Below are positions 44,375-47,082 of a stretch of 47,202 nucleotides of DNA, piece by piece (position 1 is the stretch's first letter; every line of letters starts with the position of its first letter). The notes below the pieces were generated by a model. The model was not told the origin of the DNA, made no database searches, and saw only the letters and a program-made list of their open reading frames with translations. A program made the position numbers and the translations under genes. Source of the DNA: Candidatus Methanoperedens nitratireducens (GTDB taxonomy: Archaea > Halobacteriota > Methanosarcinia > Methanosarcinales > Methanoperedenaceae); the NCBI RefSeq assembly GCF_000685155.1, contig NZ_JMIY01000001.1, forward strand, positions 39,749 to 86,950, read 5' to 3'.

Positions 44375-44447
44375 AGAATGATTGATATACCTATCTTTTT
44401 ATAGAAAAACATCATCATTGTTATGGAGGTAAACTATACAATTCGGA

Positions 44448-44486
44448 ATGATGGACGGTTATGGTATGGGCTATGGACGGAGGTAA
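44448..44486 (+). CDS. Possible 12-residue Gly/Met/Tyr-rich mini-peptide
   Basis: The frame reads MMDGYGMGYGRR and stops 6 bases before the DUF302 ATG, with GGAGGT 18 bases upstream. Its last codons contain CGGAGG, which also serves as the ribosome binding site of the DUF302 gene. It could be a translated leader, a metal-binding peptide or the tail of a lost Met/Gly-rich gene. Confidence 0.3.
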   Translation: MMDGYGMGYGRR

Positions 44487-44492
44487 TTTAAA

Positions 44493-44879
44493 ATGTACAA
44501 CTACAAAAAACCAGTTACTTTGAGTTATGCAGATGCAGTTACAAAAGTAAAGGATGAGCTGAAAAAAGAAGGTTTCGGGGTTCTCACAGAAATAGATGTC
44601 AGGCAAACTCTTAAGACAAAATTGGATGTCGATTTCGATGATTATATAATCCTTGGAGCATGCAATCCTCCATTGGCGTATCAGGCTCTAACTGCTGAGC
44701 GCGATATCGGGGTTTTGCTTCCTTGCAATGTAGTCGTTTATGTTCAAGGTGGTAAAACATTCATCAGTGCAGTCTTACCTACTGTGCAGCTTGGAAAAGT
44801 TGGCAATCCAAAGCTTTTACCGATCGCAGAGCAGGTTGAGAGCAAACTTAAAAAAGTGGTTGATGCTGCAGCAAGGTAA
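44493..44879 (+). CDS. DUF302 family protein
   Basis: The 128-residue protein matches DUF302. SYADAVTKVKDELKKEGFGV is followed by EIDVRQTLKTKLDVDFDDYI, ILGACNPPLAYQALTAERDI and GVLLPCNVVVY. The fold is a small alpha/beta sandwich. Its function is unknown, although genes of this family often accompany metal, sulfur or redox stress genes. Cysteines in GACNPP and LPCNVV are typical. The start is ATG with CGGAGG 9 bases upstream. It is first in a two-gene unit with the Met/Gly-rich gene 27 bases downstream. Confidence 0.9.
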   Translation: MYNYKKPVTLSYADAVTKVKDELKKEGFGVLTEIDVRQTLKTKLDVDFDDYIILGACNPPLAYQALTAERDIGVLLPCNVVVYVQGGKTFISAVLPTVQLGKVGNPKLLPIAEQVESKLKKVVDAAAR

Positions 44880-44906
44880 TGACCGAATTAAACCGGGAGG
44901 TAAGTT

Positions 44907-45617
44907 ATGGAAAAGAGAACGCTTGCTACTTTAGCTGTTGTACTGATTATTGTAGGCGTCACTGGATTAGTCCTTAGTTCCGGTTACCTTCGTTATCCAC
45001 CTGGATATTCGCCCCGGAATATGATGGGCGGAGATGGCTTTTGGTCTGGCATGATGGGCGGCGGAATGATGGGTGGTATGATGGGCGGCATGATGCAGAT
45101 GATGGGCGGGAACATGCTCATAAGCGGCGGCGTCCCATATAATCCCGATGGAAGCTTAATCACTCTGGAGCAGGCTGAGGATATTGCAAATAGGTATCTG
45201 GCTTCCCAGAATAATCCTGATCTTGAGCTCGCTGATCTGGAAGAATGGGAATTCAACTTCTATGTTGAGTACAAGGAGAAAAGCACAGGAGTAAAGGCAT
45301 TTCAAATGCTCATAGATAAGTATACTGGTAATATGTTTCCAGAAATGGGTCCTAATATGATGTGGAACACAAAATATATGATGGGGCTTCAGGCAGGCGC
45401 TATGCCCATAACAGAGGAGCAGGCGAGAGTATATGCCCAGCAGTTTCTGGATTCACGGCTTCCGGGCACGAAAACAGAAGATGGTGGAGTATTCTATGGC
45501 TACTATCATTTTGATGTTAAAAAGGACGATAAAATGTATGGTATGCTGGATGTAAATGGGTACTCAGGGCAGGTATGGTATCATACATGGCATGGGAATT
45601 TTATTCGAGAAGATTGA
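44907..45617 (+). CDS. Membrane-anchored Met/Gly-rich protein with two PepSY-like repeats
   Basis: The 236-residue protein has an N-terminal signal/anchor helix (about 6-27). A low-complexity stretch follows at about 40-72, composed of repeated GMMGG units and very rich in methionine. Two PepSY-like repeats come next: ITLEQAEDIANRYLAS...FQMLIDKYTGNMFPE and ITEEQARVYAQQFLDS...GMLDVNGYSGQVWYH. Methionine-rich clusters bind Cu(I) or Ag(I) in other proteins, so extracytoplasmic metal binding is a reasonable inference. The start is ATG with GGGAGGT 6 bases upstream. It is coupled to DUF302 and converges on the thioredoxin-YHS-CcdA unit. Confidence 0.8.
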   Translation: MEKRTLATLAVVLIIVGVTGLVLSSGYLRYPPGYSPRNMMGGDGFWSGMMGGGMMGGMMGGMMQMMGGNMLISGGVPYNPDGSLITLEQAEDIANRYLASQNNPDLELADLEEWEFNFYVEYKEKSTGVKAFQMLIDKYTGNMFPEMGPNMMWNTKYMMGLQAGAMPITEEQARVYAQQFLDSRLPGTKTEDGGVFYGYYHFDVKKDDKMYGMLDVNGYSGQVWYHTWHGNFIRED

Positions 45618-45628
45618 AGGCTCTGTAA

Positions 45629-45680
45629 CTAGAAAAAGGCAAGAACATGCGGTTTTTCTTCATGTTCTTACCTTTTTAGC
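45629..45680. terminator. Bidirectional hairpin terminator
   Basis: CTAGAAAAAGGCAAGAACATG on the left pairs nearly perfectly with CATGTTCTTACCTTTTTAGC on the right, around an 11-base T-rich loop. It lies between convergent operons and includes the stop codon of the thioredoxin-like gene (45660) in its right arm, so it can end transcription from both sides. Confidence 0.6.
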
Positions 45681-45887
45681 TAATTCCTGTTCCTTTGGCA
45701 CTCCTACGAATTCAAGCTTGCCATTTATGACAACACCCGGGGCAGCCATTATCGGGTATTTCTGTAATACCTCAGGGTTTTTCGTGATATCTATCAATTC
45801 ATATTTAATACCCATTTTATCAAGCATACGCTCAACGATAGCACAACTGGTGCATGATGGAGTAGTAAGTATCTGAACAGTAACCAT
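45660..45887 (-). CDS. Small thioredoxin-like protein with CTSC active site
   Basis: A 75-residue protein has a thioredoxin/glutaredoxin fold: VQILTTPSCTSCAIVERML with Cys12-Thr-Ser-Cys15 as redox centre, YELIDITKNPEVLQKY, then the cis-Pro loop MAAPGVVING and KLEFVGVP. Size and order match the short archaeal thioredoxins such as those of methanogens. It is probably the cytosolic electron donor or partner for CcdA, encoded two genes upstream. The start is ATG at 45887, 4 bases after the YHS gene stop with AAGGAG overlapping that stop. Confidence 0.9.
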   Translation of the reverse strand: MVTVQILTTPSCTSCAIVERMLDKMGIKYELIDITKNPEVLQKYPIMAAPGVVINGKLEFVGVPKEQELAKKVRT

Positions 45888-45891
45888 CCTC

Positions 45892-46035
45892 TTACTCCTT
45901 AACGAACTGCTGTGGATTCATCTCAAATGCCCACTGGCATGTGGGAGAGCAGAAATAATATTTCTTACCCTTATACTCCTTTGATGCTGCCTTCTTTTCA
46001 TCCACTTCCATCCCGCATACAGGGTCAGTTGCCAT
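45892..46035 (-). CDS. YHS-domain mini-protein
   Basis: This 47-residue protein is nearly all YHS domain: DPVCGMEVDEKKAASKEYKG then KYYFCSPTCQWAFEMNPQ, with Cys7, Cys29 and Cys33. YHS domains bind metal and occur in copper pumps and metal-delivery proteins. Its ATG shares one base with the ccdA stop codon (ATGTAATGG), so translation is probably coupled. Because it is so short it is easily missed by gene finders. It links the CcdA-thioredoxin unit to metal handling. Confidence 0.88.
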   Translation of the reverse strand: MATDPVCGMEVDEKKAASKEYKGKKYYFCSPTCQWAFEMNPQQFVKE

Positions 46036-47048
46036 TACATCACCTCTTTCTCTGTATCTTCTTTCTCTGTGCCTTTTTTCTGTTTTTTATAGAAATACCA
46101 TATTACTGGTATAGCTAGTAAAAGAATGAGAACATAAGGACCGAGCCACTGAGGGACTGCCTCAAGGATTATGCTTTTTTCCATGCTTAATTCTTCGGCT
46201 TCGCCTATCCTGCCGCCGGATAATGTTATGAGTACATGATTCCATGCCTCATGCAGCGCGCTCTCTTCATACCAGTCCCTGAACAGCCCGGTAATCGTGA
46301 ACAGAATCGCACCCACAAATATCAGCCCCCACCCTGTTACTTTTCTTACTGAACCGATTCTTTTAGTAATACTCTGTGTTGCATTGATTCCAAGAATTCC
46401 CAGTATTACCAGAAATATGAGCGGTGTAGCCCTGCCTATACCGTGAACTGCCATAATAGACCAGCCTGTAGAAATATCCGCAGTGCCTATGATATATGCC
46501 AGGAGAACATAAAAAGCTGGATTTGGACAGCCTACACCAACATTAGCAAGCAAAAGCCCGAGAAGGAACACTTTAAGATAATCACCCTGCCTTTGAATAA
46601 AAGCAGGTAGAGCAGTCTCTATACCAGGGATTTTCATCTTTATCAGACCCACTTCAGAGAGACCGAAAATATACGCCATTCCTCCGCCCAGGATGCCAGC
46701 AATCACGTTTGCCGTTAACAAGCCTGTTATCTCGCCTATAGAGGCAAAGGCAACCCCGTATATACTGAAAGTAATCATCATGCCTGCACCAAATAACAGC
46801 GCCATTACCATGCCTTTCTTCGGGCTCTCGTTCATGGCAATAGGCACTATGATAAAAGCCAAAGGCAGGGTGCAGGGCAGGAATATCATCGATAAGCCTG
46901 CAATATAAGAGAGTGTAAATCCAGCAGCTTGAGCAGGATTTGTCAGAAAAATAAAAAGACCGATAACAATTATGGAGAATAGAAGGAGGGCAAACCCTAC
47001 AAGATAAATCCTGAGTTTCTTATCAAATGAGCCTCGGTTACTGACCAT
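46035..47048 (-). CDS. CcdA/DsbD-type membrane thiol-disulfide transporter
   Basis: The 337-residue membrane protein has about eight hydrophobic segments. Two conserved single-cysteine motifs, FLPCTLPLAF and VGCPNPAFY, are in the positions of the CcdA/DsbD electron-carrying cysteine pair. It carries reducing power from cytoplasmic thioredoxin across the membrane, for example for cytochrome c maturation or metal reduction. An extra extracytoplasmic loop of about 60 residues (WYEESALHEAWNHVLITLSG onward) precedes a final helix and a Lys/Glu-rich tail, longer than minimal CcdA. It is first in an operon with the YHS and thioredoxin genes. The start is ATG at 47048. Confidence 0.88.
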   Translation of the reverse strand: MVSNRGSFDKKLRIYLVGFALLLFSIIVIGLFIFLTNPAQAAGFTLSYIAGLSMIFLPCTLPLAFIIVPIAMNESPKKGMVMALLFGAGMMITFSIYGVAFASIGEITGLLTANVIAGILGGGMAYIFGLSEVGLIKMKIPGIETALPAFIQRQGDYLKVFLLGLLLANVGVGCPNPAFYVLLAYIIGTADISTGWSIMAVHGIGRATPLIFLVILGILGINATQSITKRIGSVRKVTGWGLIFVGAILFTITGLFRDWYEESALHEAWNHVLITLSGGRIGEAEELSMEKSIILEAVPQWLGPYVLILLLAIPVIWYFYKKQKKGTEKEDTEKEVM

Positions 47049-47067: not shown

Positions 47068-47082
47068 TCTATAATATATAGA
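47068..47082. promoter_or_regulatory. Inverted repeat upstream of the CcdA gene
   Basis: TCTATA-ATA-TATAGA is a perfect inverted repeat with 6-base arms lying 20 bases before the ccdA start, where a TATA box or operator would be expected. A second TATA-like TTTTATACATTG lies further upstream at about 47090-47102. Confidence 0.4.

Follow-up and report, generated by a model that had tools for sequence, protein, structure and literature searches.

Five genes for a DUF302 protein, a PepSY protein, a thioredoxin, a YHS mini-protein and a CcdA-type electron carrier meet in two facing operons near the end of a 47,202-nucleotide stretch (the window) from Candidatus Methanoperedens nitratireducens, and the question that they raise is whether they belong together as one soft-metal and thiol system, as a preliminary description had proposed. 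The genes are genuine and their families are as originally named, each of the five domain matches exceeding its curated Pfam cut-off. On the plus strand, the gene for a DUF302 protein of 128 amino acids with cysteines in the motifs GACNP and LLPCN (44493..44879; PF03625, E 2.5e-24) is followed after 27 bp by the gene for a methionine-rich tandem-PepSY protein (44907..45617; PF03413, E 2.4e-5). The minus strand carries the genes for a CcdA/DsbD_TM-type membrane electron carrier of 337 amino acids (46035..47048; PF02683, E 5.9e-12), a YHS/TRASH mini-protein of 47 codons with three cysteines (45895..46035, translated; PF04945, E 1.3e-17) and a thioredoxin/glutaredoxin-like protein of 75 amino acids with the active site CTSC (45660..45887; Thioredoxin_3, PF13192, E 1.8e-15). 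As the first two overlap in TAATG and a mere 7 nt separate YHS from the thioredoxin gene, these three genes form one operon. Both operons converge on a single hairpin with T-runs on both strands (45633..45678; RNA fold −20.6 kcal/mol, z −3.7) that overlaps the 3′ end of the thioredoxin gene and is probably a shared bidirectional terminator. Two features were absent from the preliminary description, a decayed SHOCT gene and an operon for a multicopper oxidase (MCO), a CcmF-type protein and multiheme cytochromes past the window end.

The five genes are two modules and not one conserved unit. CcdA orthologs are present in three of the genomes searched and have DUF302 and PepSY genes as neighbours in the window genome only; synteny revealed joint occurrence of the two operons in no other genome, which is the first of the outcomes that the preliminary description had itself named as contradicting its proposal. 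We reject a five-gene unit on this basis.

The DUF302 and PepSY genes in the window are the remainder of a SHOCT-DUF302-PepSY operon that is widespread in Methanoperedens. Ten further genomes of the genus encode orthologs of the DUF302 protein (80-91% identity), and in all ten an intact SHOCT gene, encoding a protein of 78 amino acids with a GMM-rich N-terminus, lies 3-30 bp 5′ of DUF302; a Met-rich PepSY gene or fragment follows within about 130 bp in five of them, and DUF302-PepSY adjacency was counted in six genomes. Directly before DUF302 in the window, the first 17 codons of SHOCT persist (44436..44486, plus strand) and the rest is deleted. Frame translation and alignment to intact genes of the genus, which start MQFGMMDGYG..., show ATA in place of the start ATG, and the remnant reads IQFGMMDGYGMGYGRR*. 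An alignment of ten upstream regions placed the TATA box of the operon at 44395..44404 (plus strand) and revealed TTTTTATAG and a GGAGGT ribosome binding site as conserved elements; a palindrome was not found in these ten regions. SHOCT-PepSY arrangements that lack DUF302 or retain a stub of it were seen in six genomes (G003, G024, G006, G008, G009 and G013). The stubs measure 25-31 amino acids in G003 (C46) and G024 (C35), and PepSY fragments occur in G022 (C34), G023 (C214) and G006 (C121). Since the operon has decayed in several species including that of the window, it may be dispensable. Beyond the genus, SHOCT and PepSY are paired in another archaeal family (f10) and in a genome from a different family of the same order, and on a Rhodococcus plasmid PepSY is preceded by a SHOCT-like gene that scores below the Pfam cut-off.

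The PepSY protein has an N-terminal membrane anchor and contains 24 methionines, 12 of them within residues 40-75, and its motifs GPxMMWN and HxWHG are conserved; in alignment, GPxMMWN-like and HxWHG motifs recur from archaea to actinobacteria. A single-sequence structure model of low confidence (pLDDT 56) suggests two H-E-E-E repeats. Relatives of DUF302 in the PDB (1J3M, 1Q9U) are uncharacterised, and PDB searches with DUF302, PepSY and YHS yielded no functional hint; nor did we find PepSY relatives in viral contigs or literature joining SHOCT with DUF302. A paralogous Met-rich PepSY locus exists genus-wide in the fixed order PepSY2, winged-helix, small membrane protein and double-thioredoxin (PDO), the last three genes adjoining in all ten loci with enough flank (e.g., L089:8308-10347, L081:5980-7983 and L065-L074).

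The second module, the CcdA-YHS-thioredoxin cassette, was present in the window genome, a Methanoperedens sp., and in 2 of 60 relatives (each species represented by a single genome, in many cases a draft). These are Candidatus Methanoperedens sp. nzgw24 (G006), of the same genus, with 83% identity in CcdA, and Candidatus Methanoperedenaceae archaeon Kmv03 (G031), of the same family and another genus, with 94-95%; in each, YHS and thioredoxin genes then follow. A search at E 1e-20 across 393 genomes sampled from the phylum detected no further CcdA ortholog, and no CcdA relatives were found in plasmids or viral contigs. A peptide-pattern search of GTDB contigs returned the two known loci and no others; its patterns were poorly chosen, and bacterial relatives of this CcdA may therefore exist. 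The copy from the other genus is the closer one: the cassette is 90% identical in DNA to that of Kmv03, the similarity ends at the cassette edges and the flanks are unrelated. For this reason, the simplest reading is that the cassette was probably acquired by transfer.

The DsbD_TM domain of the window CcdA scores 45.8 bits against a curated cut-off of 27.1. Hydropathy indicates about eight hydrophobic segments, and the protein has only two cysteines, C59 and C174, one per half; when it is aligned with the ordinary CcdA of the genus (23% overall identity), both match cysteines there, those in PCC and IPC. The window CcdA is predicted to move thiol electrons across the membrane. A PDB search with a CcdA profile gave no functional hint. 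The thioredoxin has neither signal peptide nor membrane segment, and its nearest solved relatives, 1FO5 and 1NHO, were deposited as thioredoxins. Upstream of CcdA, the palindrome TCTATA-ATA-TATAGA (47068..47082, minus strand) had been suggested as a shared operator. We compared the sequence with the upstream regions of the orthologs and with chance counts: the exact motif occurs once, at 47068, matches with up to two mismatches are close to chance (six versus 3.9 expected), and it is conserved neither upstream of the two CcdA orthologs nor at the other operon. Its position 20-35 nt upstream of the CcdA start is that expected of an archaeal TATA box, and we reject it as an operator and consider it an unconserved, TATA-box-like element.

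Just outside the window, 3.0 kb from the PepSY gene and convergent with it, lies the gene for the multicopper oxidase. It belongs to an operon (L002:6320-14981 in the same genome) that also encodes a CcmF-type protein and a pair of multiheme cytochromes; these have 16 and 12 CXXCH motifs, and one of them carries an S-layer domain. The oxidase is of the three-domain type, and its copper motifs (HxH, HxH, HxxHxH and HCHxxxHxxxxM) are complete. Viewed as a SHOCT-DUF302-PepSY(-MCO) cluster, the locus has DUF302 and PepSY side by side and the oxidase nearby, with an intact SHOCT gene missing. The oxidase gene is present in only 5 of 31 Methanoperedens genomes and is therefore no obligate partner of the SHOCT-DUF302-PepSY module; in four of these five, its distance to DUF302 or PepSY is 0.2-3 kb and its orientation convergent. 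The five include both Methanoperedens genomes that carry the CcdA cassette (chance about 0.02, calculated post hoc), and both cassette copies are at most 19 kb from the oxidase gene. In G003, G017 and both G021 copies, the oxidase gene is followed by one for a Met-rich protein of about 400 amino acids, probably secreted and without Pfam match (L075:6685-7917, L082:7609-8808), which faces SHOCT-DUF302 in some genomes and is absent at the locus of the window genome.

Predicted soft-metal and thiol-redox functions are a recurring neighbourhood in the genus, though without the five-gene set. YHS genes lie within 5 kb of SHOCT in 6 of 43 cases (0.5 expected), within 5 kb of MCO genes in 3 of 6 (0.1 expected) and within 2 kb of CcdA in 6 of 29 (0.1 expected), with the expectations assuming uniform placement, the related genomes being non-independent and the window itself counting among the cases. 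It is on account of this genus-wide enrichment that the soft-metal theme holds. Several single loci may be mentioned here. The ordinary CcdA adjoins a TRASH-bearing Lrp-type regulator in G019, and in G004 it has a metal P-type ATPase on one side and an Lrp-type regulator on the other. An Lrp/AsnC-type regulator with a C-terminal TRASH-like cysteine domain next to the ordinary CcdA (L011:805-1404) resembles archaeal copper-sensing regulators. ClpP-like SDH-type serine proteases are encoded near YHS/CcdA or a copper-type ATPase (L034:9451-10335, L117:9941-10801 and L002:17414-18001), and the first two have an N-terminal TRASH-like metal domain.

Which metal is involved? A parallel comes from plasmid pMtWR-220 of Meiothermus taiwanensis, where homologues of MCO, DUF302, SHOCT and the Met-rich PepSY protein (31%, 44%, 52% and 38% identity) are encoded by consecutive genes that adjoin those for a copper P-type ATPase, a four-helix copper-binding protein and a metal-sensitive regulator. 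Because all four share this copper cluster, copper is the best-supported candidate substrate. The plasmid cluster differs from our locus in having neither CcdA-YHS-thioredoxin nor multiheme cytochromes; in the window genome, for its part, only a remnant of SHOCT is left, and the oxidase gene is convergent at 3 kb in a cytochrome operon. Moreover, a metal P-type ATPase adjoins SHOCT in G006 and G012, and a copper-type ATPase is located about 4 kb from SHOCT-PepSY in G146; among the SHOCT-adjacent ATPases, typed by eye from motifs, is a Zn/Cd-like type that is accompanied by a NikR-like regulator. Taken from neighbours and motifs, namely the oxidase, the Meiothermus cluster, the P-type ATPases near SHOCT and the conserved PepSY motifs, copper is our best guess, with silver inseparable from it and zinc or nickel possible. 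Neither a copper ATPase nor a copper regulator was seen in L002 or in the last 6 kb of the window; the closest Cu-type ATPase to be found lies on the same contig at C1:113172, about 26 kb past the cassette. PepSY relatives elsewhere occur without MCO or obvious copper genes, and on some plasmids DUF302 relatives adjoin sulfur-metabolism genes. Of the metals named in the preliminary description, copper is thus favoured by the oxidase, the Meiothermus cluster and the YHS enrichment, and the soft-metal/thiol theme stands, while mercury gained no specific support. Campylobacter without DsbD is extremely sensitive to copper (PMC7089426), and the multicopper oxidase CutO of Rhodobacter confers copper resistance even without O2 (PMC8456105). 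CutFOG/CueO-type resistance resembles our locus in having an oxidase that bears a Met-rich segment, together with small partners that bind copper (PMC8456105), but the oxidase of the window genome sits in a CcmF/multiheme cytochrome operon, its partners would be PepSY, SHOCT and DUF302, and the archaeon is taken as anaerobic. In the papers searched, we found no description of copper handling in methane-oxidising archaea, nor any that links copper resistance and the biogenesis of cytochrome c to Methanoperedens.

The reading that we favour, by a little more than even chances, is that two copper-handling modules adjoin each other, one buffering Cu(I) and feeding the oxidase and the other protecting thiols. 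It builds on gene content, operon structure, conservation, patchy distribution and neighbours as observed; from these we infer which metal is handled, which way the electrons flow and all of the biochemistry. The membrane-anchored extracytoplasmic PepSY protein would bind Cu(I) through its methionine cluster and conserved Met/His motifs and either buffer it or pass it to the neighbouring oxidase, which it may feed or protect, and the DUF302 protein with its two cysteines would be an accessory thiol/metal protein. The cytoplasmic CxxC thioredoxin would reduce CcdA in the membrane, and CcdA would send reducing equivalents outward to extracytoplasmic thiols exposed to copper, among them the cysteines in the CXXCH motifs of the multiheme cytochromes encoded nearby. 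In the cytoplasm, the YHS mini-protein would bind or carry copper or a different soft metal. The cassette shares with known DsbD/CcdA-thioredoxin relays the DsbD_TM domain, two rightly placed redox cysteines and a cytoplasmic CxxC thioredoxin in the operon; it differs in the length of CcdA (337 amino acids, with extra N- and C-terminal hydrophobic segments), in the coupling to a YHS gene and in that the operon encodes no extracytoplasmic acceptor. A DsbD-type membrane carrier is also tied to copper tolerance in the Scs (suppressor of copper sensitivity) system of enterobacteria. Compared with Scs, the window operon has a different gene order and a YHS protein in place of an ScsC-like extracytoplasmic thioredoxin.

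The cassette of Kmv03, where no match to the oxidase was found, counts against this reading and also against the view that CcdA-YHS-thioredoxin is an auxiliary electron supply for the maturation of c-type cytochromes, with copper being incidental. That view draws on the CcmF-type protein and the multiheme cytochromes, with 28 CXXCH motifs, that are encoded 3-10 kb away in the window genome, on the nzgw24 cassette, which shares a contig with the same MCO/CcmF/cytochrome operon at about 11 kb from its first gene, and on the electron supply from DsbD to CcmG, which is established for bacterial cytochrome c maturation (PMC8782879). We nevertheless consider it unlikely: a separate, ordinary CcdA is encoded in nearly every genome of the genus, this one included, and the metal-binding YHS mini-protein would be left without explanation.

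We grant the same low likelihood to a mere rearrangement that joined two unrelated small operons lacking a shared role, the cassette serving, for example, a MacB-type ABC transporter and a TRASH-SDH protease. Genes for precisely these two flank the cassette in nzgw24, in Kmv03 it follows an ABC ATPase gene and precedes a short TRASH remnant, and the restriction of DNA similarity to the cassette would fit as well; the proximity of the oxidase to both Methanoperedens copies and the enrichment of YHS genes near SHOCT and MCO argue against it. Resistance to mercury or organomercurials, with the YHS/TRASH mini-protein as mercury carrier, appears very improbable. The chemistry would be compatible, and the mer operons of Sulfolobus contain stand-alone TRASH proteins that likewise consist of the metal-binding domain alone (PMC3466566). 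The partners of the window protein are CcdA and thioredoxin, however, with no merA or arsR seen; inspection of the open reading frames of the stretch, done without a profile, revealed no MerA-like flavoprotein or other mercury-specific gene, and the neighbouring genes point to copper.

Returning to the two copper-handling modules, their significance would lie in connecting DUF302, SHOCT and Met-rich PepSY, small families that are poorly understood, with copper and with multicopper oxidases, in an archaeon as well as in a bacterium, and in placing a rare redox cassette beside a copper-type locus in methane-oxidising archaea. Possibly the most interesting feature of the locus is the operon for the oxidase, CcmF and the multiheme cytochromes, which raises the question of which electron acceptor serves a multicopper oxidase in an archaeon taken as anaerobic. 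One conceivable, if improbable, answer is that the oxidase oxidises Cu(I) held by PepSY and delivers the electrons to the 16- and 12-haem cytochromes, while CcdA, thioredoxin and YHS keep the thiols of haem and copper sites reduced. If true, such an O2-independent chain for detoxifying copper would connect resistance to metals with extracellular electron transfer.
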